A stretch of 64,000 nucleotides of DNA, taken from the IMG/VR virus record IMGVR_UViG_3300002140_000265, positions 1 to 64,000 of that record; one strand, 5' to 3'. Of this stretch, positions 579 to 26,861 are shown piece after piece. A program made the position numbers and the translations under genes. Positions within the stretch are counted from its first letter, which is position 1. The number at the start of each line of letters is the position of its first letter. The notes under the pieces were generated by a model that was not told the DNA's origin, ran no database searches, and was given only the letters and a program-made list of their open reading frames with translations. The DNA comes from a virus.

Positions 579-585
579 TTTAATT

Positions 586-1332: not shown

Positions 1333-1333
1333 T

Positions 1334-12814: not shown

Positions 12815-14184
12815 AATTTAAATCCTTCAAACTTCTGTCGTTTCACTGCTTGTGACTTATCATACATTGGGGTATCATCGGTCAATGTTTGTTGAGTTTC
12901 CTCTACATCATAAAGGCGCATTTTTGAACGGTCAACACCGATAACGAATCTTTTATGATATGTTGGATCATTGTATCTATTCTTTAATTGCTTGACCATC
13001 ATCTGACCTTGTTGCTCTAACTCTTCTGTTGAGATAAGGGCGAACATAAAATCGGCTGTTGCTGGGAGTCCAAAAGACTCGGAGGTGTCCTCAAGTCCGA
13101 CGTCTGAGTTTCCATATCCGCTTCTTGTTGTCTGAGTTGCAGATACGATTGGTACGTCAAATTCGACAGCAAGGCCACGTATTTCTTCGGCAATGGCCTT
13201 AATGTAGTTATAGGAGTTAATGGCACCGCCCATTCCTTTCATTCGTGATGAGGAGCAAATATTCAAGTAATCAATAAAAATGATCTGAGGTGTGAATTGT
13301 TTCTTAAGTTTGAGTTCATTCAACAAGCCACGGTAATGGCCAGTGTGTGCAGAACCCGTAGGGTATTCCTTAATAATCAACTTGCCTGTAGTCTGTTTAG
13401 ATATGTTTGATACCTTAGTGGTAAACATATCCTTAGACATTTTATCAATCTGGTCAATAGGTACATTCAACAAGTTAGCATCGATACGTTCAGCAATACG
13501 CTCCTCAGACATCTCTAATGTGATATAAAGCACATTTAAGTTCTGAGTCAAGGCTGATGCCGCCATATGACACATGAATAATGATTTACCCACACCAGTT
13601 CCTGCAAGTGCAATGTTTAGTGTTTTATTTGGCAAACCGCCCTTGGTGATTTTATTAAAGTAATCCAAGTCAAATGGTACGCGTTGCTCTTCAGTATGAT
13701 AGAAATCATATCGTCGTTCAACGTTTTCAATATAATCATGACCAACGTTAGTGTCGAAACCAACACCAAGTGCTTTAGTCAGAATATCAGGCAGTGCGTT
13801 CTTGGTAAGTGATTCATGTTTGCCATCAATAATGGAAATGGATTCCATAATCGCATTATACACTGCTCGGTCTTGGCACCACTTTTCAGTAGTATCCAAC
13901 AACCACTGCTCATCAACTTGCTCGTCAGAGAAAATATAGGGCAACACATCCATTGCCATATTATGTTGTTCACTGGTTAACTTATCGGTTTGATCTAACT
14001 CAATTTTAAAACTAGTTGATGTTGGCAATTTATTATATTTGGCAACAAACTTACCAGTCTCTTTAAACAGAGTTCGATAGATACCCTCAAAGTACTCAGG
14101 TTTAATAAATGGTAACACTTTACGCATATATTTCTCATCAGTAAGAATATTGCGTAAAATTGTTTGCTCAAGATTTACTTGCAA
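12811..14184 (-). CDS. 41: Replicative DNA helicase, T4 gp41-like (DnaB family)
   Basis: A 457-residue DnaB-type hexameric helicase that unwinds DNA 5'-3' on the lagging strand. The RecA-like domain has Walker A LAGTGVGKSLF (about 194-204), ITLEMSEERIAERI typical of DnaB motif H1a, Walker B IIFIDYLNI and motif H4 region SATQTTRSGY. An N-terminal helical domain precedes it (about 1-150). Its 5' end overlaps the 110-residue gene behind uvsX. The last ~35 residues are polar and probably disordered, possibly a contact for helicase loader or primase. Confidence 0.92.
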   Translation of the reverse strand: MQVNLEQTILRNILTDEKYMRKVLPFIKPEYFEGIYRTLFKETGKFVAKYNKLPTSTSFKIELDQTDKLTSEQHNMAMDVLPYIFSDEQVDEQWLLDTTEKWCQDRAVYNAIMESISIIDGKHESLTKNALPDILTKALGVGFDTNVGHDYIENVERRYDFYHTEEQRVPFDLDYFNKITKGGLPNKTLNIALAGTGVGKSLFMCHMAASALTQNLNVLYITLEMSEERIAERIDANLLNVPIDQIDKMSKDMFTTKVSNISKQTTGKLIIKEYPTGSAHTGHYRGLLNELKLKKQFTPQIIFIDYLNICSSSRMKGMGGAINSYNYIKAIAEEIRGLAVEFDVPIVSATQTTRSGYGNSDVGLEDTSESFGLPATADFMFALISTEELEQQGQMMVKQLKNRYNDPTYHKRFVIGVDRSKMRLYDVEETQQTLTDDTPMYDKSQAVKRQKFEGFKL

Positions 14185-14500
14185 CCTCAGCCTCTCTTTC
14201 CTTCATCGTTACACTACCATCAGTAAGGCCTAATTCAATAATGGCCTCTAGTATTAAAGCCGCGTGTTCTTGAAGGCCAGTTGTTGTTTCACTTAGATCA
14301 TTATCAGGCGATGATACAATTCTAAAATTAAATGTCATATGATCTTGTATTTCATTAAACGCAATTGCATTATACTGCAACACCGTTTCAACATAATCAC
14401 CGGTCATAAACCTAACACCCCAAGCATCTTCATTGTCTTGCAAGGGCACTAATACATAATCAACATTTTCTTTAAATTCATTCTCCGTCGGCGTCTGCAT
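14168..14500 (-). CDS. Hypothetical protein between uvsX and gp41
   Basis: A 110-residue acidic protein, overlapping uvsX by 23 nt and gp41 by 17 nt. In T4 this position holds gene 40, but I see no convincing similarity. A mixed alpha/beta composition is likely (DYVLVPLQDNEDAWGVRFMTG; then a helix ALILEAIIEL). Expressed with the recombination/replication genes. Confidence 0.6.
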   Translation of the reverse strand: MQTPTENEFKENVDYVLVPLQDNEDAWGVRFMTGDYVETVLQYNAIAFNEIQDHMTFNFRIVSSPDNDLSETTTGLQEHAALILEAIIELGLTDGSVTMKEREAEVASKS

Positions 14501-15515
14501 ATACCTCTCTCCTAATCATGTAAGTCTTAGCTAAATGTGCAGCAAAGTCTGTAGTGTCAAATACTGGTTTCCAGAACTCTTCGTTCAGTGTCTCTTTTTC
14601 TCGGTACTTACCCTCCAGCACTTCTCCACTAGACTTATCAACTTTTTGATACCATCCATTACTAGGCTTAATAACATATCCACCAGCAAGAGCAACGTCC
14701 AACAAACCTGACCAACGCTGGACACCACCTTCCCAAGAAACTGAGATAGGAATTTTTGATTTTTCTCTGACATATCGTGATTTTTCTACGTTAATGATAA
14801 AGTGGTAACCTTGAATTTCAGTGCCGACTTTATCTTGTTGACGGCCAAGAATCCAGATGTTATCGGCCGAATAATAAATGCCTGTGCCGCCAGATACAAT
14901 ATCTTTAGGGAACAGACCGATTTCTTTATATGTGTGGTTAACAGCAATCAGTGGAATATTTTTCATATTCAAGTATGGTGTGCACATACGGAAGAGACCT
15001 TTGAGAGCTTTGGCACGAGACATATCAGCTACTGATTTTTCATTCATAGCATCATCTAACTCTTTCTTTGATGCTAGGTTACCGACAGAGTCAATAACAA
15101 CGCATACCTTATCGCCACGTGTTAATCCTTCGAGTTGACCGATTAAGTCAAATTTAAGCTCTTCTACGTTAGTGATTGGTGTGTGCAACACACGCGATGG
15201 GTCAATATCAAATTGCTCAAAATAAGACTGAGGTGAACCAAACTCTGAATCATAGAATAGCATAACTGCATCTGGATATGCCTTCAGATATGCACTAGCC
15301 ATAATAAGAGCAAATGATGTTTTAAAATGCTTTGATGGACCAGCCAATACAGTCAGGCCTGGTGACAAACCACCATCAACTTTACCAGACAGTGCAACGT
15401 TAATCATCGGTACGTCAGTCGCAACCATATCTTTTTCAGTAAAAAATTTAGACTCCGACAAAATTTCAGTATGATCTAACTTACTGTTCTTTTTTAGTTT
15501 ATCCATAATGGACAT
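14478..15515 (-). CDS. uvsX: UvsX RecA-like recombinase
   Basis: A 345-residue strand-exchange protein. The T4-type Walker A variant GPSKHFKTSFA (about 58-68) and Walker B VCVVIDSVGNLASK (about 137-150) are present, as is the DNA-binding loop region SGGTGIYYS. It forms filaments on ssDNA for recombination-dependent replication with UvsY and gp41. Encoded next to gp41 as in T4; uvsY lies at 38 kb. Confidence 0.93.
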   Translation of the reverse strand: MSIMDKLKKNSKLDHTEILSESKFFTEKDMVATDVPMINVALSGKVDGGLSPGLTVLAGPSKHFKTSFALIMASAYLKAYPDAVMLFYDSEFGSPQSYFEQFDIDPSRVLHTPITNVEELKFDLIGQLEGLTRGDKVCVVIDSVGNLASKKELDDAMNEKSVADMSRAKALKGLFRMCTPYLNMKNIPLIAVNHTYKEIGLFPKDIVSGGTGIYYSADNIWILGRQQDKVGTEIQGYHFIINVEKSRYVREKSKIPISVSWEGGVQRWSGLLDVALAGGYVIKPSNGWYQKVDKSSGEVLEGKYREKETLNEEFWKPVFDTTDFAAHLAKTYMIRREVYADADGE

Positions 15516-15527
15516 AATATAATTTCC

Positions 15528-16484
15528 TTATACGATATTGTAGTACTCTTTGTACCACTCAACAAATTTAGCAACACCAACTTCTACTGATGTTGTTGGT
15601 TTATAACCAAGCGCTTGAAGTTTGGTAGTGTCTGACCAGGTAGTTTGTGCATCAGCCGGGTGTTTTTCAACCAATTCTTTAATTGCCTCCTTACCAACGT
15701 TCTTTTCGATTTCACTCACAAAGTCCATGAGTTGAACTTGTTTGCCATAACCTATATTATACACTGTTTTTAGCGGGACTGGTGTATTATTTGCGTGACT
15801 GATAACAATATTAATGCCTTGGATAATATCGTCAATGTAAGTAAAGTCACGAATCATATCACCATAATTAAATAATTTAATTGGTGTACCATCTATGATT
15901 GACTTAGTAAAGCTAAACAGCGCCATGTCTGGGCGACCCCATGGACCGTAGACAGTAAAGAATCGAAGGCCAATGGCAACTGGCAATTTGCTTGACATGA
16001 ACTGAGATTCATTAGCAGCCTTAGAGTATGCGTATGCATTTAGCTGATAACCTAATTTTTCGGTTTCATTCCAAGGCAGTTCATTACCTACCATGACAGC
16101 AGAGGTGGAAGCATAAATTACTCTATCCACTCCACGTTGCTCACAAATCTGAATTAAATTATTAGTGGCAGTAATATTATTATCGATATACAGCTGTGGA
16201 TTATTTAACGAATGTCGAACACCGGCATACGCAGCCAAGTGCACCACGACATCAGGTGCAGCTGAAGTAACTGCATATTCAACATCAACCGTATTAGTAA
16301 TATCACCTCTAATAACCATGATACCATTTTTTTCTAATAAAGAGCTGCGAGCAATCTTTAAATTAGCATCATAGTAATTATTAAAATTATCAATGCCAGT
16401 CACGCGGTGGCCTTCACCGTGGAGCTTTATTGCTGTGTGATATCCAATAAAGCCTGCACAGCCGGTTATTAAAATATTTGCCAT
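15528..16484 (-). CDS. NAD-dependent epimerase, UDP-glucuronate 4-epimerase-like
   Basis: A 318-residue extended short-chain dehydrogenase. N-terminal GCAGFIGYH Rossmann motif (about 8-16), GIDNFNNYYDANLK which is characteristic of UDP-glucuronate 4-epimerases, and the catalytic YAYSK (YxxxK) with an upstream STSAVM serine. It would interconvert UDP-glucuronate and UDP-galacturonate. The partner enzyme UDP-glucose 6-dehydrogenase is encoded at 21343-22149, so together they could take UDP-glucose to UDP-galacturonate. Use on DNA, capsid glycans or host surface is not decided by sequence. Confidence 0.85.
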   Translation of the reverse strand: MANILITGCAGFIGYHTAIKLHGEGHRVTGIDNFNNYYDANLKIARSSLLEKNGIMVIRGDITNTVDVEYAVTSAAPDVVVHLAAYAGVRHSLNNPQLYIDNNITATNNLIQICEQRGVDRVIYASTSAVMVGNELPWNETEKLGYQLNAYAYSKAANESQFMSSKLPVAIGLRFFTVYGPWGRPDMALFSFTKSIIDGTPIKLFNYGDMIRDFTYIDDIIQGINIVISHANNTPVPLKTVYNIGYGKQVQLMDFVSEIEKNVGKEAIKELVEKHPADAQTTWSDTTKLQALGYKPTTSVEVGVAKFVEWYKEYYNIV

Positions 16485-16485
16485 T

Positions 16486-16938
16486 TTATCTTTCGATAGT
16501 TCGAACAGTGATACCTACTTCATCAAACATACTCTTAGAAAATTCCCATGAATCTTGCCATTTTTTAGGAATGCCAGCGGTTTCAGTTATAATTTCTTTA
16601 ATGCCAACTTGTATAATGCCTTTGGCGCACTCAGAGCACGGCGGCAATCCATGAATATAAAGTGATGCACCATCAAGTGAAACACCATTATACGTAGCAT
16701 TATAAATGACATTCATCTCTGCATGGACGACATACATGTACTTAGTAGGTTTATCATCATATCTTTCGGCATAATCAAAAATACCTCTAGGAAAACCGTT
16801 ATAGCCTTGAGCCAAAACATTGCGTTTAGGGCCGACAGCAATTGCGCCTACCTTGGTTGAGGGGTCTTTAGACCATGATGCTACTTCTTTAGCAAGTCGT
16901 AAAAATACATGGTCCCAGCTGTTATGCTCGTTAGACAA
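16486..16938 (-). CDS. cd: dCMP deaminase
   Basis: Zinc deaminase making dUMP from dCMP. The zinc site is clear: HAE in VVHAEMNVIYN and the CxxC of PPCSECAKGI. I place the start at a TTG at 16938, overlapping the previous gene's stop, because it yields the family N-terminus (SNEHNSWDHVFLRLAKEVASWSKDPSTK). An in-frame ATG at 16995 would add 19 unusual residues and overlap the upstream gene by 65 nt. It supplies dUMP to ThyX and sets the dCMP/dUMP balance near a suspected dCMP-modifying enzyme. Confidence 0.85.
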   Translation of the reverse strand: MSNEHNSWDHVFLRLAKEVASWSKDPSTKVGAIAVGPKRNVLAQGYNGFPRGIFDYAERYDDKPTKYMYVVHAEMNVIYNATYNGVSLDGASLYIHGLPPCSECAKGIIQVGIKEIITETAGIPKKWQDSWEFSKSMFDEVGITVRTIER

Positions 16939-17128
16939 ATGTTTTTGATGGTTTCCAGTTGTCCCAGTCGGAGTTTGTATCATTTTTTTCATCATTTAAT
17001 GGTTTGTTGCGGTCAGAGTCGTAGTAATGTTCTGAGTGAACTAGCGTAGATTCATTAGCCCATTTATCGTGAGCTTTGTTCCATTCCTCAGGCGTAACGT
17101 CGTTAAGTCGTTTCTTGGGTTCTGTCAT
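16931..17128 (-). CDS. Small polar protein of unknown function
   Basis: 65 residues, rich in Asp, Asn, Lys and Trp (TPEEWNKAHDKWANES; DWDNWKPSKTFV). GGAAT site upstream of the ATG, 5 nt after the oxygenase-like gene. It overlaps the dCMP deaminase start. No family recognised. Confidence 0.5.
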   Translation of the reverse strand: MTEPKKRLNDVTPEEWNKAHDKWANESTLVHSEHYYDSDRNKPLNDEKNDTNSDWDNWKPSKTFV

Positions 17129-17133
17129 AATTT

Positions 17134-17766
17134 TTATTCCATTGTTTTTGTGTTAAAAATAGCATGGTCCTTATACATGTTAGCACTTTTTTCAATATAC
17201 TCATTATAATTAGCCTTTTGACGGCCATATATAGTTATTAAATGTTTAGTATACCCATGATGAAAATCAGCAGCATGTTTAGTTTTATGATCCCAATACA
17301 TCCATGTGTTTGTATCTTTAGGAAGTGTTTGGTATACTTTTTGGCCATTCAATCTGTAATTAAACGTTGGTTCAATATTAGTGTTATAAAGCATAGATCG
17401 CACACTTAATATTTTTTTATCTGGAAGTGCATCACTGTGTGGTATAACTGTTACAAAATTTGAAACAACTCTAACTATATCGATTTTAATAGGAAATTTA
17501 TCTAGGTTATCAAAAATCGATGGAAATAAGTCAGGCCGATTGACATTTTTCGCATCATATGTCACTATACTCCTTGAATTTATACCAGGCCTAGACCATA
17601 TCTCAAGGCCTTTCCATGGAGAACTCACATTGTTATGTGTTTTTATTACTTTAGGCGTATATGCAGATTCCTTGTTCCACAAATCCCACCAATCATCCCA
17701 GCTTGTAGGCTCAATTAATGGTAGATCTAATGGAGTAGAAATTAAGTCTTTTAAATCATTGCTCAT
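17134..17766 (-). CDS. Putative Fe(II)/2-oxoglutarate oxygenase, paralogue of 8595-9335
   Basis: A 210-residue protein. HSD in VTVIPHSDAL (about 108-117) and a distal His-rich segment WDHKTKHAADFHH with ITIYGR following fit a cupin-type iron site as in aspartyl/asparaginyl beta-hydroxylase-like phage proteins. It shares LxxLxSTPLDLP at the N-terminus and MYKDHAI at the C-terminus with the 8.6-kb protein. First gene after the promoter at 17778-17806, heading the operon that continues to dCMP deaminase, epimerase and UvsX. Substrate unknown. Confidence 0.55.
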   Translation of the reverse strand: MSNDLKDLISTPLDLPLIEPTSWDDWWDLWNKESAYTPKVIKTHNNVSSPWKGLEIWSRPGINSRSIVTYDAKNVNRPDLFPSIFDNLDKFPIKIDIVRVVSNFVTVIPHSDALPDKKILSVRSMLYNTNIEPTFNYRLNGQKVYQTLPKDTNTWMYWDHKTKHAADFHHGYTKHLITIYGRQKANYNEYIEKSANMYKDHAIFNTKTME

Positions 17767-17777
17767 AATATACGTCT

Positions 17778-17806
17778 ATTATACCATGAAAGCATCAAGT
17801 TGTAAA
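17778..17806 (-). promoter_or_regulatory. Early/middle promoter, TTTACA-17-TGGTATAAT
   Basis: Minus strand: TTTACA (17801-17806), 17-bp spacer, TATAAT (17778-17783) with extended TGG. It is embedded in the last codons of the upstream gene and sits 11 nt before the oxygenase-like start. Confidence 0.7.
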
Positions 17807-18834
17807 TCGTTTTTTGCAATATTCGGTTGGCCTTGTCTTTGTTCCCACCCAGACTCCCATCCAGATTTATTACTTATATCGGATGGCACATGATCAAAGG
17901 TGTTATCGCTGCGTGGTACATAGTTTTGGCCAAAGCGAACAAAGTCACACATTACGTCTTCGTTATCACGTGGTGCGCCTCCCATGCGCTCACAGAGAAG
18001 ATCCATGAATTCGTCCGTAGTATACCCGTTTGATAAGAGCTTCATGCATCGTATCGCGTTATTACCAAAGTAGCCATGCGACATATCATCAACTAAATCT
18101 TTGTGGTAGTCACCCATATCATATGAGAATGCAGCATACACAAAGTTAAATCGCTTGTGACCTTGTTCTATGTTATACTCATTCAAATAATCAACTACTT
18201 CTTTATGAGTCCTTTTACGGCCTTCCTTTGGCAACCATTCCATAAAACGATCAACTAAAGGTTCAAGTTCGTTTACCATAAAATCAAGACACGTAACGCC
18301 TTTACGGGGTGACGGTGGCTGGTTGCCAATCGAAGTAAATAAAGGCTTTCCAGATTGCTTTTTCTCAATCATGAAAGCTTTCATATCTTTGATATCACGC
18401 AGCTTACCAAAATGTTGAACTACATTATTGCGATAGCCGTGGTCACGCGTGAACGATGCGCCAGAACCTGTAATACGATGAACAAAGTAAGTATAGAACC
18501 AAGTCTTGGTATCCCAACTTTCAGTAATATAACTATCGACAAGATCCCAGTGTTTTTGGCCGAGAGCTGAGTTTTTAATTTGATGGTGTCTCTTGGGTGT
18601 GTTAACACGAAACTTTAAGTCCTGTAATACATTCGAAAAACCAGCCGCATCGCGTGTGTAACAATCGTAAATGTCAATATATTGCATTAATGGATCATTG
18701 ACTGCTTTATCAGCTTCTGATCCTAGATAAGATATATCGCCCCAGTTGCAATTATCTTGTAACCATTTTGCGCGTGGGTAATAGTAGTTAACTAATACAT
18801 CCAGAGCTTCTTCATTCAGCCATTTGTTTGACAT
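17779..18834 (-). CDS. Unrecognised protein, candidate base-hypermodification transferase (aGPT-pyrophosphorylase-like)
   Basis: 351 residues from the ATG at 18834, which follows GGGAAAAG and gives a 23-nt overlap with the PLP gene. Mostly helical with many aromatic residues. Notable segments are WFYTYFVHRITGSGASF (about 116-132), DHGYRNN, and FVYAAFSYDMGDYH. The general look recalls the helical proteins described as alpha-glutamyl/putrescinyl-thymine pyrophosphorylases or amino-acid:DNA transferases of phages with hypermodified bases, but I cannot establish this without profile comparison. Last gene of the four-gene overlapping operon with a ThyA-like enzyme, which is the main reason for the suggestion. 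Confidence 0.4.
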   Translation of the reverse strand: MSNKWLNEEALDVLVNYYYPRAKWLQDNCNWGDISYLGSEADKAVNDPLMQYIDIYDCYTRDAAGFSNVLQDLKFRVNTPKRHHQIKNSALGQKHWDLVDSYITESWDTKTWFYTYFVHRITGSGASFTRDHGYRNNVVQHFGKLRDIKDMKAFMIEKKQSGKPLFTSIGNQPPSPRKGVTCLDFMVNELEPLVDRFMEWLPKEGRKRTHKEVVDYLNEYNIEQGHKRFNFVYAAFSYDMGDYHKDLVDDMSHGYFGNNAIRCMKLLSNGYTTDEFMDLLCERMGGAPRDNEDVMCDFVRFGQNYVPRSDNTFDHVPSDISNKSGWESGWEQRQGQPNIAKNDLQLDAFMV

Positions 18835-19708
18835 TCTTTTCCCAATCGCGATATGAGTCTGTTTGATCAATAATCGATTTGTTAATAAGCTCTGGCTCAC
18901 GGCCTACGTTCCAAAATAGAATATCTTTATCACTATTCTTAGGTATAAATTTCCATACCTTTCCGTCGTAGGTATCTATGTTAGGAAATGGTGGTAAGTT
19001 CTCTTTTTTCTCGCTTGAAGTAAATGCAAGGTTTTCAGAAATGGGCTTAGCTTTACCAAGTTCACCCGCTTTCATATTACGTGATACACAGACAGATACA
19101 AATTCAGCATCTGGCCAAGCAATCTGAAGCGCGCGGGTGAGCACGCCCGTGGACGTGGCAGTATACACGACATCAGGCGCTGGTATGCGTGAAGCAGACT
19201 TTACAATACCTGCTGTCACACGTTCATGCTTTAATCCAAGAGGAACAAAGAATGCATTCGAATGTTCACTAGCCCATTTCTTTGCAATCAAATTTAGATT
19301 AGGCATTGCAGCAATACGATGAAAAGATACATCAGCCCCACGTTCGATACAACAGGCTTGATGCACTGAAATCTTCTGAGAAGAAGGCATGAACAGTCGC
19401 ACCTTCTTATTATGGCGCTTTGCTACATCAAGGATTGATACACCTGCTAAACCAGTCCTAGGCTGAACATACACAATGGTATCGATATGCTCAGGCAGCG
19501 ATGATATCAAACAATCTCCACCACGTACTTTTGATCCTACAAGAAAATCATCCCGCACCACCCTGATTCCGTCATGTGTCACAATTTCTGGCATTCCATA
19601 AGGATCTTCCCAATCCTTTGCCATCTCTAAATAATATTCTTTTGGATCGCCATAAAACGGATTTATGTCTCGGTTGACCCCGTCAATTACATGGTTATTA
19701 TGCGGCAA
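18812..19708 (-). CDS. Fold-type-II PLP enzyme (ACC deaminase/tryptophan synthase beta-like)
   Basis: A 298-residue protein whose order of motifs matches fold-type-II PLP enzymes: GSKVRGGD with a candidate Schiff-base Lys60, a long alternating alpha/beta region (VYVQPRTGLAGVSILDVAKRHNKKVRLF), and a phosphate-binding segment TATSTGVLTRAL replacing the usual Gly-rich loop. Relatives (ACC deaminase, D-cysteine desulfhydrase, threonine synthase) act on amino-acid substrates. The frame opens with TTG at 19708, overlapping the previous stop; the first in-frame ATG is at 19624. In this operon it may prepare or modify an amino-acid adduct. Reaction unknown. Confidence 0.65.
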   Translation of the reverse strand: MPHNNHVIDGVNRDINPFYGDPKEYYLEMAKDWEDPYGMPEIVTHDGIRVVRDDFLVGSKVRGGDCLISSLPEHIDTIVYVQPRTGLAGVSILDVAKRHNKKVRLFMPSSQKISVHQACCIERGADVSFHRIAAMPNLNLIAKKWASEHSNAFFVPLGLKHERVTAGIVKSASRIPAPDVVYTATSTGVLTRALQIAWPDAEFVSVCVSRNMKAGELGKAKPISENLAFTSSEKKENLPPFPNIDTYDGKVWKFIPKNSDKDILFWNVGREPELINKSIIDQTDSYRDWEKNVKQMAE

Positions 19709-20654
19709 GTGCTGTTACTCCCCAGTTTTTTCTAAAATGAAATGGCGGTGCAATGTGAAAAGACGAACCATGTTCCATAAACGTATTTGCGTATTTCTCA
19801 GGATCCATAGTGTACCATTCTTTTGGTGGCATTACAACTTTACCTTTTGACTCAGTATATAGCATATCAATAAAGTTATTGGTAAGCTCTTGTCGGTCTT
19901 TCCAAGAACCAAAAAAAGGAGTCTTCTTATAAAATCCAGATTTAGGAATGCGTCTTCCTTCAAACTCTACTGGAACTGGAGCAGCAAACCATACATCATC
20001 AGCTAATTCTTTGGCCTGGCTTACATAGTCCTTAATAGTATCTTTTAAAGAAAAATCAGGATAGCGTAAGATGTGGTGCCTAATATCAATTGACCCCATA
20101 CAAAAGGTAGCTTTACCAACAAGTTCGCCAAAATCCTGACGTAATCCTTTTTTTAAAGTTCCAAAAAGGGTTTTACCATCAGCGCGATACACCCGATCGC
20201 CTACGCCGCTAAACGCTATGGTATGCGAATCACCGATTGTGACACCATCAGTCAACAGGTCTTTCTGTTTGAGTGAGGAAATACTTTGTATCCGTTTTGA
20301 TACAAGGTCGCACCATTTCTCAGTAATGCCTTTATATGTAGTAGGAGCATCGAGCCGTTTCTTTAGCATAGCGCCGTAATCTGGCATATCCCAATCTAAA
20401 GACACGATGTTAGTGCAAGACATTACAAGGTTGATTTTATCAAATACTTCCTTATTTGCACCACCAAACAAATTAAGGGTGCCACCAAAATTAGCGCCAT
20501 GCTCAATATATACTACATCAGCATTCTTAATGTACGGAGTGCATTTATGATCTATAGATGCTTTGAGTTGATCTTTCCATAACAAAGACCAACCAAGCAC
20601 ATGCGACTTCTCATTCTTTGGAATGTTTGATATTGGATTAGTGATTACGTTCAT
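19698..20654 (-). CDS. SGNH-hydrolase-like protein (putative esterase/acyltransferase fold)
   Basis: A 318-residue protein. GDSHT (residues 141-145) matches SGNH block I with the nucleophilic serine; CMGSIDIRHH (about 185-194) resembles block III (G-x-x-D-x-R) of SGNH/PC-esterase-like proteins; SSFHIAP near residue 300 could supply the catalytic His. An N-terminal ~130 residues have no recognised domain. It touches the ThyA-like gene at its start (1-nt overlap) and overlaps the PLP gene by 11 nt. A role as acyl/amino-acyl transferase or hydrolase on the modified nucleotide is inference. Confidence 0.5.
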   Translation of the reverse strand: MNVITNPISNIPKNEKSHVLGWSLLWKDQLKASIDHKCTPYIKNADVVYIEHGANFGGTLNLFGGANKEVFDKINLVMSCTNIVSLDWDMPDYGAMLKKRLDAPTTYKGITEKWCDLVSKRIQSISSLKQKDLLTDGVTIGDSHTIAFSGVGDRVYRADGKTLFGTLKKGLRQDFGELVGKATFCMGSIDIRHHILRYPDFSLKDTIKDYVSQAKELADDVWFAAPVPVEFEGRRIPKSGFYKKTPFFGSWKDRQELTNNFIDMLYTESKGKVVMPPKEWYTMDPEKYANTFMEHGSSFHIAPPFHFRKNWGVTALAA

Positions 20655-21301
20655 TAGCTTACAAGATTAAAATGGCGTTCGTACACGTGCAAATTCTGAA
20701 CTTGCCATGTAATAGTACCGGTTTCAACATTTAAAGTATTTGCTACTTGGTGTAAAAGATGCAGCTGCCAGGCATAATCATTCTTATAGCCATAGACGAC
20801 ATCGTTGGAACGCATCTGAACTACACAATGCAACTTACTATCACGAATGTAGTATGTGACTGAATTGGTACAGATGAAGTCGTTTTTGCCATTCTCATTG
20901 TACTCATTCCAAATCGATGGACGAGTGTAGATCATAGACGCACGGCGAGAATCCGGATTAGTTTGTAATTCTTCCACGACTCTTTTAAATTGATTATAAA
21001 ATTTATCTGAGTAAACTAATAAGCCATAGTTTGAATTAATCTCGCCGTGCTTGTTTCCAGTCATTTTCCAGGCAGCAGGTACAGTACCTTCAATATCATT
21101 GACGTTGCTAGACATTGAATTGTACCATCGAAATTCACGCTGGATATATTCATAGCTTGGTTCGCCAAAGATAGCTGGCTCATCAGCTACGAATGATGCA
21201 CCAAGGATCTCAATGGTTTTTGATCCATTACGATCTGTGGTAAAACGCTCATCTGCCAAAGCTTTGACAAAAAGAGTGCGTATATCAGATACCTTTAACA
21301 T
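20654..21301 (-). CDS. ThyA-fold pyrimidine methylase/hydroxymethylase, probable dCMP hydroxymethylase
   Basis: A 215-residue member of the thymidylate synthase fold. Conserved: R119-R120 (phosphate, other subunit), catalytic C144 (FICTN), R164-S165-x-D167 (QMRSNDV) and H205-x-Y207 (NLHVY). The residue aligned with the TS substrate-selecting Asn (E. coli N177; in GLPFN) is Asp175 (GYKND). That Asn-to-Asp change is the known hallmark of T4 gp42-type dCMP hydroxymethylase. The C-terminal ~40 residues of ThyA are missing. ThyX is present elsewhere in the genome, so dTMP synthesis does not depend on this enzyme. First gene of the overlapping operon behind a perfect early promoter. Confidence 0.75.
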   Translation of the reverse strand: MLKVSDIRTLFVKALADERFTTDRNGSKTIEILGASFVADEPAIFGEPSYEYIQREFRWYNSMSSNVNDIEGTVPAAWKMTGNKHGEINSNYGLLVYSDKFYNQFKRVVEELQTNPDSRRASMIYTRPSIWNEYNENGKNDFICTNSVTYYIRDSKLHCVVQMRSNDVVYGYKNDYAWQLHLLHQVANTLNVETGTITWQVQNLHVYERHFNLVS

Positions 21302-21324
21302 TATTACTCCTGAGTTGATTTAAC

Positions 21325-21353
21325 ATTATACAACAGAATCTGTTATTTGTACA
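21325..21353 (-). promoter_or_regulatory. Early/middle promoter, TGTACA-17-TATAAT
   Basis: Minus strand: TGTACA (21348-21353), 17-bp spacer, TATAAT (21325-21330). It overlaps the 3' end of the UDP-glucose dehydrogenase gene and drives the ThyA-like/SGNH/PLP/unknown operon. A GGAG-type site precedes the ATG at 21301. Confidence 0.75.
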
Positions 21354-22149
21354 TAATTTTTTGTTCTTTTTCACGGTCATCTAACTCGTATTCAGCACGC
21401 ATCGTATTATTGGCACTTATAACAGCTTCTAATACTGATAATTTATCACTAAAGTTAACAAAAGCTTGGGTATCTTTAGGAAAACACGCTCCGCCAAACC
21501 CTAGTTTTCCATCAAACCCCGGCACTTTGGTGTGGCTGTGTCCAATACGAGAATCAGCACCTACAGCTTGAATAATTTGATTAAAATTATAACCATTATC
21601 AGCGCACATACTATAAAGTTGATTAAAGAAAGCTACCTTGGTTGCAAGGAAAGAATTAATAGTATATTTTACAACTGAAGCTTCTTCAATAGTCAATTTA
21701 TACGAAGGACAAATATTGCATAGGCTATATTGCTGATAATATCTTTCAAGCGTGTCTGAAGCCCGGGTATCTCCACCAAAAATGTGAAACGGTGGATTAA
21801 TAAATTGTTCAGAAGCCGACTTTTCAGTTAAAAACTCAGGGTTATACACCACACTGCTTGTTGCAAATTCCTTTAACACATCTGGCGGTACTGTAGATTT
21901 AATTACTACCATACTATGATTTAAAAAACCACGTAGCTTTAACTGCTCCATCGTATTACGGATAATACTAAAATCACCCATAGGTGTAGGAACACACACA
22001 AATATTAAGTCGGTGCTAATATCGATATGGTTAACATTATTGTTATACTTTGGATCAATAGTTTGCTTTATTACTTTTGGATTGGTAAATCCATAGTCAA
22101 CAGCTTTACCAACAAATCCATGGCCAATGATTGCAATTTTAAAGTGCAT
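21343..22149 (-). CDS. UDP-glucose/GDP-mannose dehydrogenase-like protein (short form)
   Basis: A 268-residue NAD-dependent sugar-nucleotide dehydrogenase. N-terminal Rossmann IIGHGFVGKAV (about 7-17), FVCVPTP (about 50-56), STVPP, YNPEFLTE, and the catalytic-cysteine motif GFGGACFPKDT near residue 217. It ends soon after the central helix, so the usual C-terminal UDP-binding domain (full length about 390-450 residues) is absent; activity on UDP-glucose therefore needs testing. Pairs logically with the UDP-glucuronate epimerase at 15.5 kb. Follows the NMAD1-like gene directly. Confidence 0.8.
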   Translation of the reverse strand: MHFKIAIIGHGFVGKAVDYGFTNPKVIKQTIDPKYNNNVNHIDISTDLIFVCVPTPMGDFSIIRNTMEQLKLRGFLNHSMVVIKSTVPPDVLKEFATSSVVYNPEFLTEKSASEQFINPPFHIFGGDTRASDTLERYYQQYSLCNICPSYKLTIEEASVVKYTINSFLATKVAFFNQLYSMCADNGYNFNQIIQAVGADSRIGHSHTKVPGFDGKLGFGGACFPKDTQAFVNFSDKLSVLEAVISANNTMRAEYELDDREKEQKIMYK

Positions 22150-22497
22150 TTACAATACCGGGTATTCTTTTGTTTTGCGGTTTAAAAAATCACGCGATGG
22201 ATCTTGACCGTCGATCTTACCGCGTGAATATGACACGGCAAAAGAAGCATAGTTGATCAGATCTTTAAGTGAGTCTTCGACTGATTCGAAGTTAGGTTCG
22301 TAGTTAGGATCGTTTTCCATGGCTTCTAGTACTGACCACAAACGGATTGTTTTAGTATTGATTAGTTCCATAATAGACATCACACCACGAGGGTAGTAGT
22401 CTGCTTGACGGATTCGTGACTTTTCATTTTGATAATCACGAGACTTTCGATCTTGGATTTCTGCACACTCTTGTAAGACTTTAATTGATTCACGCAT
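22150..22497 (-). CDS. DUF1599 / nucleotide-modification-associated domain 1-like protein
   Basis: A 115-residue helical protein: CAEIQDRKSRDYQN at the N-terminus, a central MSIMELINTKTIRLWSVLE, and FESVEDSLKDLINYASFA near residue 80. This order (K-x-x-DY; R/K-rich helix; E-S-x-x-D-x-L-x-D-L-x-N-Y) matches DUF1599, named nucleotide-modification-associated domain 1 because it recurs beside ThyA-like base-modifying enzymes in phages. Biochemical role unknown. It is the second-last gene before the modification operon and lies behind its own early promoter. Confidence 0.65.
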   Translation of the reverse strand: MRESIKVLQECAEIQDRKSRDYQNEKSRIRQADYYPRGVMSIMELINTKTIRLWSVLEAMENDPNYEPNFESVEDSLKDLINYASFAVSYSRGKIDGQDPSRDFLNRKTKEYPVL

Positions 22498-22516
22498 AGC
22501 AACTCCTAAAAATTAT

Positions 22517-22545
22517 ATTATACCATAGATTCGAGCTTATGTACA
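22517..22545 (-). promoter_or_regulatory. Early/middle promoter, TGTACA-17-TGGTATAAT
   Basis: Minus strand: TGTACA (22540-22545), 17-bp spacer, TATAAT (22517-22522), extended TGG. It lies inside the last codons of the nuclease-like gene and 19 nt before the NMAD1-like start, with a TAGGAG ribosome site in between. Confidence 0.75.
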
Positions 22546-22964
22546 CATATATATCGGCCTTTTTCGCCAAATACCCATTTTGCATAACAAATATACCTAT
22601 TCTCATCTCGTTGGAAAAAGATTATATGGTTAGATATATCTTTTTTCCATAACACTTTTCTTTTACGTAAACTATGTTTACCACCATGCAGTACTTCTTC
22701 CATCCATGCATCAGGATCACGATGAACGCCGAATGTTTTTACTTCAACAGAAACACCTTCTGGATTAAATAAATCTTTATAAGGCGTGACATCGTTACTA
22801 TAACCACATTTTTCAATAAGAAAATGTTCAGCGATTAGACCGTTACGAGTGTTTTCATAACTTGAATATCCATCTCGGTATTCTTCAGCCAAATGCTTTT
22901 CTAATTGATCTAAGTCAATATCGCTATCGACAAAAGTATCACCAACTTCAATATTCCACAACAT
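22518..22964 (-). CDS. Putative PD-(D/E)XK-type nuclease
   Basis: A 148-residue protein. RNGLIAEHFLIEKCG (about 41-55) provides a helix with Glu, followed by KDLFNPEGVSVEVKTF where D and the EVK triad fit the PD-(D/E)XK core, then a strand IIFFQRDENRYICYAKWV. The spacing is plausible for a small phage-type endonuclease but no closer family is recognised. One-nt overlap with the AEP-like gene. Could act in recombination, in DNA repair or in degradation of unmodified host DNA. Confidence 0.45.
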   Translation of the reverse strand: MLWNIEVGDTFVDSDIDLDQLEKHLAEEYRDGYSSYENTRNGLIAEHFLIEKCGYSNDVTPYKDLFNPEGVSVEVKTFGVHRDPDAWMEEVLHGGKHSLRKRKVLWKKDISNHIIFFQRDENRYICYAKWVFGEKGRYICVHKLESMV

Positions 22965-23896
22965 TAAAAATTCCTATACACATATTCTAAAGCCCGATCT
23001 GCTTCTTTATCTAAAGGCCGAGAAGCATACCAGTTACCGGTTTCGGCATCAAATTGCCTGCACATTTGGGAAATTTCTTGTACCGTGATAGGGTACTCGC
23101 TCTTAATAGCATTACCAGCAACAGCAACCATAATCTGATACATTTTGTGATACCATCCAGTACTGCTAATGACTTGATATTCTGATGCAAGTTTCTTAGG
23201 CCAGAATGGGCAATCTCTATAACCTGTCCATTTGATACTAGTGTTTTCTAGTTGAGACTTTCGGTGTTCAATAATTTGTTTTTGCCATTCGTCGGGCAAT
23301 CGATCCATGAAACTGTTGGCGTTATTGGCCCTATCGTTATATGGCCATTTGGCACAAAGAAAGTCCACATCAATATACTCACCGTTGTTAACAAAGAAAA
23401 AATTGTTAGCGCCAGCATACGTCGCAGGGATGTAATACATTCTGCTGAGGTCTTTAGTTTGTCTATCTCCGATTGATTCAAGTTCACTATTGAGTGCGAA
23501 CCAGAAATGTCGGATCTTCTCATTTGGTACAGATGTTGTAAGTGGGAAGACGAGCCTGAACTTCGGCCGTGCAACAGTGCTGCTTGCAGTACTATAACAA
23601 ATATAATGCCACTTACCAAACCTATTTCGTAAAGCATTTTCTAAATCTCCTTCAAATTCATGATCATCAACGTCAACCGCAGCCCAACCTCCCCATTCAA
23701 TTACGCTTTTATTAGAACGCGTAGCGCCTTCAACATAATTTGCAGGAGATATAAGATAAGCATCTTTTTTTGATTGCACTGGTTTTTGAGATAAAGCCTT
23801 AAGTGCCATCTCAAACTGTGCAAAAGTCTTAAACTCTAATGAGTTATGAGTCTTATTATCAAAAATACTTTTAAAGCGCGTCAGGCAAATAACCAT
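22964..23896 (-). CDS. AEP-type primase-like protein
   Basis: A 310-residue protein whose N-terminal ~200 residues resemble archaeo-eukaryotic primase/PrimPol domains: WAAVDVDDHEF (about 71-81; the acidic metal-binding motif), YICYSTASS ... RPKFRLVFPL (about 98-117), DLSRMYYIPA (about 144-153) and GEYIDVDF. A C-terminal helical part (about 215-310) could be a primase-associated domain. It may supply RNA or DNA primers for gp41/gp43; no DnaG-type gp61 appears in this window, though it could be elsewhere. Overlaps the MazG-like gene by 26 nt. Confidence 0.5.
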   Translation of the reverse strand: MVICLTRFKSIFDNKTHNSLEFKTFAQFEMALKALSQKPVQSKKDAYLISPANYVEGATRSNKSVIEWGGWAAVDVDDHEFEGDLENALRNRFGKWHYICYSTASSTVARPKFRLVFPLTTSVPNEKIRHFWFALNSELESIGDRQTKDLSRMYYIPATYAGANNFFFVNNGEYIDVDFLCAKWPYNDRANNANSFMDRLPDEWQKQIIEHRKSQLENTSIKWTGYRDCPFWPKKLASEYQVISSTGWYHKMYQIMVAVAGNAIKSEYPITVQEISQMCRQFDAETGNWYASRPLDKEADRALEYVYRNF

Positions 23897-24284
23897 GATT
23901 GTCCTTATGGCTTGGGGCAGTCCATCCTTCAGGTTTTATCAAGTCAGGCATTCCTAATGGATTTGGACGCTCAGGTTTTACACCGACATTTTTGCTCATG
24001 TTAGCTTTGAGTACTTCATTCCATGCTTTATCAGCATCAATGCCAAACGCTTCAAGTGTACCAATAGCAATAACACATAAGTCAATCAAGCCATCAATTA
24101 CTTCTTCGGCATCTTTTTCTTTATATGCCTTTTGTGTTTCATCGTATTCTTCTTTCAAGAAATTCATACGAAACTCAAGAAACTTATTAACTTTTTCTGG
24201 ATCAGCTTCGCGGGTTTTGCTCATCCATTCTGGCACGCCATAATGTGCGTGCATTTCTTTCATATCTGTAAACCAAGATTTCAT
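23871..24284 (-). CDS. MazG-like / all-alpha NTP pyrophosphohydrolase
   Basis: A 137-residue protein with the all-alpha NTP-PPase core: helix FLKEEYDET (the E-E-x-x-E/D motif, about 43-51) and VIDGLIDLCVIAIG (about 63-76, the E/D-x-x-D motif). Such phage enzymes hydrolyse (d)NTPs or related nucleotides. The C-terminal PERPNPLGMPDLIKPEGW tail is typical of phage members. It could remove unwanted nucleotides (for example unmodified dCTP) in a base-modifying phage, but this is speculative. Confidence 0.75.
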   Translation of the reverse strand: MKSWFTDMKEMHAHYGVPEWMSKTREADPEKVNKFLEFRMNFLKEEYDETQKAYKEKDAEEVIDGLIDLCVIAIGTLEAFGIDADKAWNEVLKANMSKNVGVKPERPNPLGMPDLIKPEGWTAPSHKDNHGYLPDAL

Positions 24285-24317
24285 AAAATATACCTTTTAA
24301 TTTTAACTAACATAGTC

Positions 24318-24346
24318 ATTATACCATATATACACGCTGATGTACA
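24318..24346 (-). promoter_or_regulatory. Early/middle promoter, TGTACA-17-TGGTATAAT
   Basis: Minus strand: TGTACA (24341-24346), 17-bp spacer, TATAAT (24318-24323), extended TGG. Located in the short gap after the DNA polymerase stop codon; drives the MazG-like, AEP-like and nuclease-like genes. Confidence 0.75.
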
Positions 24347-24353
24347 TATCTTA

Positions 24354-26861
24354 TTAAGCAAAAAAGTCTTCAAGTGTCTGCTTATCTTCAAGCGACCACT
24401 TTACCGCATCAAGAATGAACATAAGCGGATCGATGAACGTTTTATTAAACTGTAAGTCATAGTTAATATAACGATGCAAACCAAGCTCATTAGGCAAATG
24501 GTCTGGAAATGAAATTACATTTTCTTTGATACGGTTTGGCATCCGTAGATACGCAAACTTTATTTTATCACCATTACGAATAAGCTCATACTTTGAATCA
24601 AGGCTGAGATCCTTTACTGCTTTATTATACATAAGCGATCCGCGGACGTGGATGGGAGTGCCTTTCTTATAAATGGTCTGATTATTTTTCCACTCAGTGA
24701 TATTACTTACGCCACGAGGAAAGGCAACCGCTTCTGGAGGCAGTTTTTTAAACTCTTCTCTGAACTTATTAATAAACTGCCTGGTTTCTTCTTCACTGCC
24801 TTTGATAATAATTTTAAATATTTCTTTAAACTTATCACGCACTACTGCTGGCGTCGATGATTTAATAGCTTCAATGCCCATAATCTTAAGCTTTGGTTCT
24901 GCGTATTGCACACCTTCGCTATTATGTACATTTAATATATAGCGCTTCTTAGCAGTCCAGATACCACGGTCAGCGATCACTTCGCGTTTCATGACCATTC
25001 GATTTTTATGGCCGTTCATGTTCTTGAATAACTCTTCATAAGCTCGTGCTAGCACAGGCTCAAAGTGTTGACTACATACCTTATCTAAGAATGCCACCTT
25101 TGCATCTGTGCCATCATCAGGTTTCCATTTCATAGTATCGACCAGCGGGCCAAAGTTTACATACAACGAATCAGTATCAATCGCAATAACATAATCCTTA
25201 TTTTTAGTTTTAAGGATTTTATTCATGGATTCATTCATTGCTTTTTCAGCCCATTGAATTGCTAACTGGCCAGTAAGTGTTACACCTTCGGCTAGACGAA
25301 TATCAAAGTATCTGAAGTAAGCATTACCAAGCGCACCATAAAGTGAGTTAAGCAGAATCTTAAGGGCCATTTGAGTATTCTCAAGGCGGTTGATTTCTTT
25401 CTCAAGTTCAAACGTCTTGTTTTTTTCATACGCGCTCTGCGATGCAAGCATAGCCTTTTTAGTAGCAGAGCGTTCGTCATAGTAATCTATAATAATACCA
25501 GGAACTACGCCATCAATATCTTTACGATATGTGGAACCATTTGCAGCTGCAGCATATTCATCAACATCTGCTTTATTGCCATCAAGATAATAATCTACGC
25601 CAGACTTAACAAACTTATCAGTCACGGTCTCTGGCGACATGTTATTCTGCACAATGATATTTGGATAAAGCGAATTCAAGTCAAAAGATACAACCCAATT
25701 GTGAAGTCCAACTTTAGGATCTTTAACATAACCACCCGCAAATGCAGTCTTATGATTGGTATCATTGCCAATCGGTGGCATTGTTTTCTGAGACTTAAGT
25801 TTACGGTAGATAATTGATTCCCAAATCGCCGTAACACCAAATGTGTCCTGGTAATTCACACCACCCTTATACGCCATGGTCATGGCAAGGGTAATAAGAC
25901 CCATCTTATCCTCAAGCCGATCTACAAGTTCCACGTCCTTCATGTTATAGTCAATGTACTTTTGGTAATCATCCTTGTAGAGATTTTTAAGAGAACCTGA
26001 TTCCTCGAACGAAAGCTTAGTATCACCAAGTACAACATAGGCGATGTGATTTAGTTTGTAGGACTCTTGATTACCGTAGGAGTAACCAAACTTCTGAAAG
26101 AGCTCTAGATAGTCTAAGGTTTGTATGCCTTCGATATTATAGGTATCATTAACTCTGTTTAACCGAGTGACCTGGCGGTAATTCAGCATACCCCATGGCG
26201 AGAATTTCTTGGCCCAATCTTCGCCTAATATTTTAGTGACGCGATTGACCAAATAAGGCATATCGAAGAATCGTACATTCCAACCAGTAATCACATCAGG
26301 TGAGAACTGCGGTGCTTGCCAGTGTGTAAGGAACGACTTAAACAACTCGGCCTCAGATGAGCACTTGATGTACCTTACAGGTTTAATTAAAGCCTTTTCT
26401 GTGTCGTAATCACCGTAACCCCAGACATAATACATCCCATCAATATTATTTTTGATAGTAATAGCCAACACTTCGTTCTCTGCTTTACTTGGCTCGGGAA
26501 AGCCATCGTCATAAGCAGTTTCAATATCGATTGTGGTTACGTTAATACGGTCACGGTCAAACTTGATATCGCCTGGAAATTTCTCTGATATAAATTGATG
26601 GATTTGGTTAGGGTTACCATAGATGTTAAAACCAGAAACATCTTTGTATTTCTCCATCCATTCTTTACCTTCACGCATGCTATCCATCTTGACAGGACCA
26701 ATCACGGCGCCATCAAGCCCACGCCAACCTACGTCTTTCTGTGAGGGCACATAGTACGTGGGTTGGAATGGTTCTTTACGCTGGTAGCGACGGCCTTGGT
26801 CATCATATCCACGGAATAGGATATTGTTACCATAACGAAAAACTGACGTGTAAAAAGACAT
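24354..26861 (-). CDS. 43: DNA polymerase, T4 gp43-like (family B)
   Basis: An 835-residue replicative polymerase with 3'-5' exonuclease. Exo I TTIDIETAY (about 108-116), Exo II region ITGWNVRFFDMPY, polymerase motif A DLNSLYPNIIV (about 393-403), motif B KILLNSLYGALGN (about 501-513) and motif C AIDTDSLYV (about 568-576). Slightly shorter than T4 gp43 (898). The extreme C-terminus LEDFFA resembles a clamp-binding peptide. It has its own early promoter upstream. Confidence 0.97.
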   Translation of the reverse strand: MSFYTSVFRYGNNILFRGYDDQGRRYQRKEPFQPTYYVPSQKDVGWRGLDGAVIGPVKMDSMREGKEWMEKYKDVSGFNIYGNPNQIHQFISEKFPGDIKFDRDRINVTTIDIETAYDDGFPEPSKAENEVLAITIKNNIDGMYYVWGYGDYDTEKALIKPVRYIKCSSEAELFKSFLTHWQAPQFSPDVITGWNVRFFDMPYLVNRVTKILGEDWAKKFSPWGMLNYRQVTRLNRVNDTYNIEGIQTLDYLELFQKFGYSYGNQESYKLNHIAYVVLGDTKLSFEESGSLKNLYKDDYQKYIDYNMKDVELVDRLEDKMGLITLAMTMAYKGGVNYQDTFGVTAIWESIIYRKLKSQKTMPPIGNDTNHKTAFAGGYVKDPKVGLHNWVVSFDLNSLYPNIIVQNNMSPETVTDKFVKSGVDYYLDGNKADVDEYAAAANGSTYRKDIDGVVPGIIIDYYDERSATKKAMLASQSAYEKNKTFELEKEINRLENTQMALKILLNSLYGALGNAYFRYFDIRLAEGVTLTGQLAIQWAEKAMNESMNKILKTKNKDYVIAIDTDSLYVNFGPLVDTMKWKPDDGTDAKVAFLDKVCSQHFEPVLARAYEELFKNMNGHKNRMVMKREVIADRGIWTAKKRYILNVHNSEGVQYAEPKLKIMGIEAIKSSTPAVVRDKFKEIFKIIIKGSEEETRQFINKFREEFKKLPPEAVAFPRGVSNITEWKNNQTIYKKGTPIHVRGSLMYNKAVKDLSLDSKYELIRNGDKIKFAYLRMPNRIKENVISFPDHLPNELGLHRYINYDLQFNKTFIDPLMFILDAVKWSLEDKQTLEDFFA

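Follow-up and report, generated by a model that had tools for sequence, protein, structure and literature searches.

The DNA analyzed here is a 64,000-nucleotide stretch (the window) comprising positions 1 to 64,000 of the 65,886-base virus record IMGVR_UViG_3300002140_000265 from IMG/VR, and the element of interest is a four-gene cassette at 17779-21301 that an earlier note, made from the sequence letters alone, had read as a possible new system for the hypermodification of cytosine in phage DNA. All four open reading frames (ORFs) lie on the minus strand and code for a ThyA-fold hydroxymethylase, an SGNH-fold enzyme, a fold-type-II pyridoxal phosphate (PLP) enzyme and a helical protein, referred to below as HEL (Table 1). 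Checked against the sequence, the note was right about the ORFs and strand as well as the overlap lengths (1, 11 and 23 nucleotides). The mechanically called ORF of HEL begins earlier, at GTG 18900; because the alignments of its relatives begin near the ATG at 18834, translation probably starts at the latter. The same four proteins are encoded with 100% identity in a 102-kb IMG/VR contig (L007) of the same virus. The DNA polymerase of the window was nearest to that of Phage C48C1 (53.9%), followed by marine Synechococcus phages and marine virus records (~48%), and the cassette is embedded among T4-like replication genes; the source is an uncultured T4-like virus.

The "perfect early promoter" to which the note had attributed the operon stood in part. 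A copy of the motif TNTACA-N17-TATAAT does precede the first gene, and ten copies occur in the window, all on the minus strand, where 0.16 were expected and none of 100 shuffled sequences reached ten; scored as a generic sigma-70 site, however, the cassette promoter matched at only 10 of 12 positions. Because generic sigma-70 sites in 14000-24500 numbered 39 against 37.8 in shuffled sequences, the excess of the phage-specific promoter is invisible to such a generic scan. A second copy of the motif (17778-17806) lies at the end of HEL, upstream of the next gene.

Table 1. Cassette genes, promoter and neighbouring features in the window (aa, amino acids).
Feature	Positions	Strand	Remarks
dCMP hydroxymethylase (T4 gp42 type)	20654-21301	-	215 aa
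SGNH-fold enzyme with extra N-terminal domain	19698-20654	-	318 aa
Fold-type-II PLP enzyme	18812-19708	-	298 aa, TTG start
HEL, helical protein, probable HhH DNA-glycosylase-like fold	17779-18834	-	351 aa from ATG
Cassette promoter, TGTACA-N17-TATAAT	21325-21353	-	Directly upstream of the hydroxymethylase gene
dCMP deaminase	16486-16995	-	PF00383, E 4e-20; frequent cassette neighbour
MazG-type nucleotide pyrophosphohydrolase, candidate dCTPase	23871-24284	-	PF01503, E 3e-11
UDP-glucose dehydrogenase	21343-22149		Flanks the cassette
NDP-sugar epimerase	15528-16484		Flanks the cassette

The family profile of the hydroxymethylase (alignment A5) scored 337.9 bits against T4 deoxycytidylate hydroxymethylase (1b49) and 85 bits against the best thymidylate synthase, and the protein also matches phrog_160. 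Its base-recognition residue, D175, is Asp in all 14 cassette members of this alignment and Asn in gp58 of Pseudomonas phage M6, and we take Asp at this position to mark a dCMP enzyme and Asn a dUMP enzyme. Asp was likewise read in 79 of the 80 loci of a scan made with the hydroxymethylase, the residue pattern being unread in the remaining one. The description of the first gene as a dCMP-type ThyA-fold enzyme was thus borne out. The window additionally holds a ThyX-like gene (11788-12477, phrog_85) whose product can, judging from its sequence, make dTMP, together with the dCMP deaminase gene, found in 85 of the 139 loci of the first three scans (many of them short pieces), and the MazG-type gene, whose product we infer to be a dCTPase. 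The gp42-type profile and the Asp, combined with the ThyX-like, dCMP deaminase and MazG genes, make hydroxymethyl-dCMP very probably the first product of the cassette. Two contigs also carry a serine hydroxymethyltransferase gene of note. In one of these (L086, 1271-2473) it lies inside the cassette, between PLP and HEL, where it could supply glycine; in the sole other such case among the loci (contig L043/L136; L043, 4434-5573) it lies immediately behind the hydroxymethylase gene, a position that suits the supply of methylene-folate to that enzyme.

Sequence libraries placed the PLP enzyme loosely, with 19.9 bits against Pfam PALP (PF00291; cut-off 35), a match to phrog_7093 and a weak match in the PDB to cysteine synthase. 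Comparison with the thymidine-hypermodification cluster of phage M6 gave a clearer result: over 246 residues the protein is 24% identical to M6 gp52 (BLASTP E 5e-7; hhalign probability 96), and both share a C-terminal PFP..YD.K.WK...FWN(I/V)G stretch that is taken as specific to this relationship. On these alignments, which include the hidden Markov model (HMM) comparison proposed in the note, the PLP protein is a distant relative of gp52, a member of that cluster. We take M6 gp52 to decarboxylate an amino acid already linked to a base. K60, R52, R84 and an STG loop are kept in all 93 PLP sequences, and K60 is the putative Schiff-base Lys, assigned by position alone. Among phage records, relatives at E 1e-5 were confined to two Erythrobacter phages (as part of an 809-aa ORF in one of them) and Microcystis phage Mae-JY30.

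The AlphaFold2 (AF2) model of the SGNH protein has a predicted local distance difference test (pLDDT) score of 89.7, and the region of residues ~129-313 resembles SGNH/GDSL esterases. Among natural chains the GDSL lipase 4hf7 scored best, with Z 11.3 over residues 129-310, for a tool whose typical best chance score is Z 7 to 8; two designed scaffolds outranked it (Z 11.6 and 11.4), and further matches were esterases, acylhydrolases and a peptidoglycan O-acetyltransferase (Z 9.8). The nucleophile motif G141-D142-S143-H144 is present in all 141 distinct sequences and H300 in 140 of them. Judging from the model, the 318-aa protein is an enzyme of the SGNH superfamily, in agreement with its first description. 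Members of this superfamily carry an Asn in block III and a DxxH motif in block V; His300 is found here without the DxxH spacing. The protein matches phrog_13881, and searches of Pfam, NCBIfam and PDB sequences gave no name to either SGNH or HEL. In phage records the SGNH family was found in 40 entries (38 of Aeromonas phages and two of Stenotrophomonas phages), to which a divergent query added three records of Tenacibaculum phages PTm1 and PTm5.

Residues 1-128 of the SGNH protein form an extra N-terminal domain, for which the acceptor domain of T4 beta-glucosyltransferase (PF09198) was considered and rejected, the best match lying below threshold (E 0.0023; 18.1 bits vs 27). Three of 39 members matched this family at E up to 1, all of them sub-threshold; a PDB search with one member returned no beta-glucosyltransferase-like match for the domain; and the candidate catalytic-base residues are poorly kept (D87 in 80 and D89 in 87 of 141). 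The resemblance to beta-glucosyltransferase is a weak lead.

For HEL, the evidence came mostly from its predicted structure (AF2, pLDDT 88.4). The best match of the model in BFVD was a protein named "Amino acid:DNA transferase domain-containing" (E 1.8e-15, TM-scores of 0.78 and 0.71, 25% identity), followed by two uncharacterised proteins, a second protein bearing the transferase name (E 1.8e-4) and entries of HMUDK_hel and Pplase1 (E 0.03-0.11). A second look at the PDB with VIA-align placed HhH DNA glycosylases in all of the top ten positions (Z 8.3-4.1, unrelated rows at or below 3.0), in a range below Z 13 that for helical proteins may be due to chance. In profile comparisons 32 HEL sequences aligned in order with the family of M6 gp55 over ~155 columns (P 8e-4). 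These matches make HEL a probable distant member of the HhH-fold superfamily of base-hypermodification proteins (ADDT, HMUDK_hel and PPlases), falling under no single Pfam family. The "unrecognised helical protein" of the note is accordingly an apt description as far as Pfam goes, since no model was passed, and its predicted structure resembles viral proteins named as amino acid:DNA transferases. Family libraries gave HEL no name, apart from one PHROG match without function (E 0.0027), and in the PDB its profile hit only designed helical proteins, which we judged to be chance. At E 0.01 none of 50,697 phage records matched HEL, and at E 0.1 none matched a divergent member.

A second helical protein, HEL2 (~330 aa; hhalign P 4.5e-7 to HEL), was identified in 24 loci (e.g., L088, 8875-9864, and L359, 2118-3077) and lies within the cassette wherever the cassette is complete. 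Some versions of the cassette therefore have two such helical proteins, as M6 does. The HEL gene of L111 and the SGNH gene of L138 are split into several ORFs, through either assembly error or decay.

The distribution of these genes indicated that they belong together. Three scans gave 38, 64 and 45 loci, later scans were added, and the 286 loci obtained were merged, where overlapping or near-identical, into 185 groups. Hydroxymethylase, SGNH, PLP and HEL occur together in 67 groups, and 16 more have SGNH, PLP and HEL; 46 hold SGNH with myo-inositol-1-phosphate synthase and another partner, CT, described below (22 of these with hydroxymethylase), and one, Aeromonas phage 44RR2.8t, holds SGNH and CT. 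Hydroxymethylase only was found in 32 groups, partial sets in the other 23, and HEL or PLP mixed with CT or the synthase in none of the 185. Because most of these groups were fetched by the cassette genes themselves, the scan made with the hydroxymethylase only, which covered the best 80 of 95 relatives, provides a fairer count: among the 56 of these 80 loci with at least 6 kb downstream, 21 have SGNH, PLP and HEL and six have SGNH, CT and the synthase. SGNH without partners was seen in none of the 56 and in one of the remaining 24. In assembled genomes, seven of eight HEL loci also carry SGNH and PLP; two of the HEL loci belong to a Rhodobacteraceae bin, a hint of the host unless they are mis-binned. 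Gene orders included TS-deaminase-SGNH-PLP-HEL-uvsX, TS-HEL-PLP-SGNH (TS, the thymidylate synthase-fold gene) and PLP-SGNH-HEL. The search for the same gene set in other genomes, suggested in the note, thus recovered the set and not a fixed order, and varying order with a constant set points to joint function rather than mere inheritance as a block. The four-gene set is not a product of chance; it is a widespread conserved cassette.

The same SGNH family is also found in a sister cassette. ORF233c of Aeromonas phage 44RR2.8t (L004, 6402-10382) consists of SGNH fused to a second part, CT, relatives of which occur in 60 loci (L219-L278), with SGNH as neighbour or fusion in 59. In 59 of the 60 the cluster includes the inositol synthase, in 46 an FkbM methyltransferase (both identified via one member) and in 51 a small conserved protein of no assigned family. 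Phage 44RR2.8t is the exception, as the synthase was looked for in this phage and not found; directly before its fusion gene lies a gene for a sodium:solute symporter, a class that presumably includes inositol transporters. Of 18 distinct hydroxymethylase-like proteins from CT loci, 17 have the dCMP-type Asp and the other is an ordinary ThyA-like protein; the gp42 relatives of 44RR2.8t and Aeromonas phage 25 also have Asp. CT loci contributed 41 of the 141 SGNH sequences, and the GDSH motif kept in HEL and CT loci alike fits a single shared SGNH step. CT matches HMUDK_hel below threshold (E 0.0036 for 44RR2.8t and 0.0022 for UP87), and its profile scored above controls against the families of M6 gp55 (P 3.3e-4, reverse 1.2e-4) and gp51 (P 7.9e-4, reverse 0.012), a pattern that points weakly to a relationship of CT with gp55. 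HEL and CT are linked only through M6 gp55, the common partnership with SGNH and their mutual exclusion.

In Caulobacter phage Cr30 (L367, 5729-9176) a clear ADDT gene (PF18724, E 1.3e-52) lies two genes before an inositol-1-phosphate synthase gene; no PF18748 kinase was found in the record, and the only hydroxymethylase candidate found was a ThyA-like protein. The CT loci, the symporter of 44RR2.8t and the ADDT/synthase pairing of Cr30 make inositol a plausible alternative side chain, which suggests that the sister cassette makes inositol-decorated 5-hydroxymethylcytosine (hmC). Aeromonas phage 25 may represent another arrangement (L005, 5770-9041), where a UDP-galactopyranose mutase gene and a 358-aa protein, which by eye may be a glycosyltransferase, precede SGNH, perhaps as a third side-chain module; no relationship with HEL, CT or the proteins of M6 was seen for gene 227nc of this phage. 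An inositol-phosphate synthase gene was also seen in Stenotrophomonas phage IME-SM1 (L366, 7323-12623) among the 7-deazaguanine genes folE, queC and queE. SGNH was not found across this 17-kb stretch, and inositol may there serve another base modification.

Altogether, these observations favor the reading that the cassette makes a hypermodified cytosine through successive steps of the gp42-type enzyme, SGNH, HEL and PLP, to which we assign a probability of roughly 0.7. The cytosine hypermodification put forward in the earlier note is supported by the dCMP-type enzyme, the gp52-related PLP protein, the structural matches of HEL and the linkage of the genes, from which we infer the product and the activities. 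The first step, for which homology is strong, would yield hydroxymethyl-dCMP and, after its presumed incorporation, hmC in DNA. SGNH would then act, within the DNA, on the 5-hydroxymethyl group that hmC carries; the role we prefer is its esterification into a leaving group, as a counterpart of the work done by the 5-hydroxymethyluracil (5hmU) DNA kinase in the thymidine pathway. HEL, as its fold relatives suggest, would bind the flipped base and replace the activated hydroxyl by an amino acid, and PLP would decarboxylate or otherwise trim the attached amino acid to an aminoalkyl side chain, as M6 gp52 presumably does on thymine. The resulting base would be new to DNA. In the portions of the literature that could be searched, including PMC8056088, PMC11946847, PMC9599517, PMC11955845, PMC6449724 and PMC12838424, no amino-acid or inositol modification of hmC was described; neither an aminoalkyl-cytosine made by such a route nor a naturally occurring inositol-cytosine in DNA was found there.

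An activating role for SGNH is favored because this protein recurs throughout, whereas the transferase and side-chain genes vary, because GDSH is kept in both systems and because no 5hmU-type kinase was found: PF18748 had no match in any of 13 records (10 viral, mostly fragments and two of them from the same virus, and three of Aeromonas phages), with M6 as the positive control. Since the same SGNH family works elsewhere with CT and inositol-1-phosphate synthase, the transferase and side-chain module appears to be exchangeable. The more specific scheme, in which SGNH activates hmC by forming an ester rather than a phosphate and an HhH transferase swaps in an amino acid here (trimmed by PLP) and inositol in the sister cassette, is advanced tentatively, at below even odds.

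Several results weigh against this scheme or against hypermodification by the cassette in general. None of 32 HEL members passed the Pfam thresholds of ADDT (PF18724) or HMUDK_hel (PF18723); PF18724 was not found in 14 records even at E 10, nor PF18723 in seven cassette records (two from the same virus). A plain Foldseek search of the PDB with the HEL model returned nothing (best E 2.0), though the structure of M6 gp51 is solved; neither this structure (25qc) nor those of a relative (8z2m, 8z2n) are among the PDB matches listed for the model, which by itself does not speak against a relationship. The HMM-HMM comparison of HEL proposed in the note gave a mixed answer, the initial signal to the gp55 family dropping to P 0.0078 (reverse 0.029) with 100 sequences, with scores of 29.2 and 25.2 against 23.7 for the best unrelated control. 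HEL and CT gave no signal in a profile comparison, CT being also without a structure model. Block III of SGNH reads G187-S-I-D190 rather than GxND, so that the usual Asn is absent. No HhH-type protein was found in phage 25 or PTm1 by profile searches of the stretches and by PF18723 and PF18724 over the whole records, and SGNH beside UDP-galactopyranose mutase in phage 25 without such a protein fits an activating role poorly. Among the 56 long-flank hydroxymethylase loci, 29 have none of these gene sets. Finally, M6 presumably needs a radical SAM enzyme for its C-linked product, and decarboxylation of an N-linked glycine by PLP in the manner of M6 would need one here as well. A search of nine cassette records, which are fragments, found such genes in four, each time far away from the cassette; the other five, including the virus of the window, showed none. 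Serine attached through O, or glycine attached through C, would make a better substrate for a PLP decarboxylase.

The role of SGNH could alternatively be a late one, acylating or deacylating a finished side chain, whether amino acid, inositol or sugar. This possibility, which we hold at somewhat below even odds, would account for SGNH occurring without an HhH-type protein in phage 25 and PTm1 and agrees with structural matches to esterases, acylhydrolases and the O-acetyltransferase, but a single late step would then have to act on widely differing side chains although GDSH is invariant, and SGNH apart from its partners was absent from the long-flank hydroxymethylase loci.

It is, in our assessment, less likely than not that PLP acts on a free amino acid to make a donor (e.g., by beta-replacement) that HEL or SGNH then transfers to hmC. 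The weak Pfam and PDB matches to PALP and cysteine synthase would be in line with such a role, as would the serine hydroxymethyltransferase gene within the cassette of L086 and the relative in phage Mae-JY30, which adjoins two ParB/sulfiredoxin genes, a class that presumably includes serine kinases. The closest functional relative found, however, is M6 gp52, presumably a decarboxylase that acts on a base-linked amino acid, and the other serine hydroxymethyltransferase gene directly follows the hydroxymethylase, which better suits methylene-folate supply.

That the virus makes plain hmC, with SGNH, PLP and HEL serving unrelated amino-acid or surface-sugar metabolism, is very improbable, since the sugar genes flanking the cassette (a UDP-glucose-dehydrogenase relative occurs in 29 of 139 loci) are missing from many long-flank cassette loci that nevertheless keep SGNH, PLP and HEL, and since both HEL and PLP are similar to proteins of base hypermodification. 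The earlier note had itself allowed that the 351- and 318-residue proteins might belong to unrelated pathways; SGNH lies mostly beside HEL or CT and is fused to CT in 44RR2.8t, which argues for a common pathway, whereas in phage 25 and PTm1 no such partner was found.

Other genes of the window were also inspected. The pair of epimerase and UDP-glucose dehydrogenase genes sits between HEL and uvsX in several other contigs. Behind HEL, under its own promoter copy, lies a gene for a 210-aa protein (17134-17766) with an HxD...H pattern that by eye looks like a 2-oxoglutarate/Fe(II) oxygenase; no relative was found among the other loci, including the 98%-similar contig L008. For a class II aldolase-like protein (10706-11329), relatives lie within the cassette or border it in L026, L029, L030, L031 and L032. 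Flavin lyases act in thymidine systems, and an FAD oxidoreductase (9516-10700) that resembles D-amino-acid dehydrogenases (below the curated cut-off) was considered as a part of the cassette; it was dropped, as only two of 16 related records had it and one of these two is a contig from the same virus. At 27-3039 lie a Rieske-type protein and two ORFs resembling fatty-acid desaturases, probably auxiliary metabolic genes.

Among known systems, the thymidine hypermodification cluster of M6, whose product we take to be 5-(2-aminoethyl)deoxyuridine, bears close comparison with the cassette. Its order is gp51 (ADDT, PF18724), gp52 (PLP), gp53 (a weak radical SAM match), gp54 (5hmU DNA kinase) and gp55 (HMUDK_hel), and it resembles the cassette in bringing together a ThyA-fold hydroxymethylase, helical proteins (gp51 and gp55) and a related fold-II PLP protein. 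The M6 hydroxymethylase, in contrast, is of the dUMP type and that of the cassette of the dCMP type, which sets the cassette apart from the 5hmU route. The cassette also differs in having SGNH, in a HEL that lies below every Pfam threshold, and in that no PF18748 kinase was found in the 13 records, mostly fragments, and no radical SAM gene in five of nine cassette records or near the cassette in the other four. The hmC pathway of T4 likewise has a gp42-type dCMP hydroxymethylase amid T4-like replication genes; T4 follows it with alpha- and beta-glucosyltransferases, whereas the conserved neighbours in the cassette are SGNH, PLP and HEL (glucosyltransferases were not searched for in the cassette records). 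In the CmoA/CmoX/CmoY system, a C5-methyltransferase with carboxy-S-adenosylmethionine and an ATP-dependent ligase make 5-carboxymethylcytosine-glycine amide (PMC12783734). As proposed for the cassette, this system puts an amino acid on a C5 substituent of cytosine in phage DNA, but no hydroxymethylase, SGNH, PLP or HhH protein is described for it in the portion of that report available to us (PMC12783734).

The clusters of SGNH, CT and inositol synthase share with the cassette the same SGNH family and mostly the gp42-type Asp; they have CT in place of HEL and the synthase, often with the FkbM methyltransferase, in place of PLP, the two sets never being mixed in the 185 groups. As this sister cassette is found in cultured Aeromonas phages (44RR2.8t and its relatives), part of the idea is directly testable. 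The cassette points to amino-acid-type base modification that reaches cytosine through hmC in many T4-like viruses not yet cultured; if true, this would mean new hypermodified bases and new enzymes that write on hmC-containing DNA, useful for hmC mapping, and the cassette may explain how hmC is protected in some phages bearing gp42. For thymine, complex modification of phage DNA with amino acids is already known, and a kinase primes the base there. The cassette is probably a cytosine-directed relative of these thymidine hypermodification pathways, with SGNH perhaps replacing the kinase and at least two side-chain modules.

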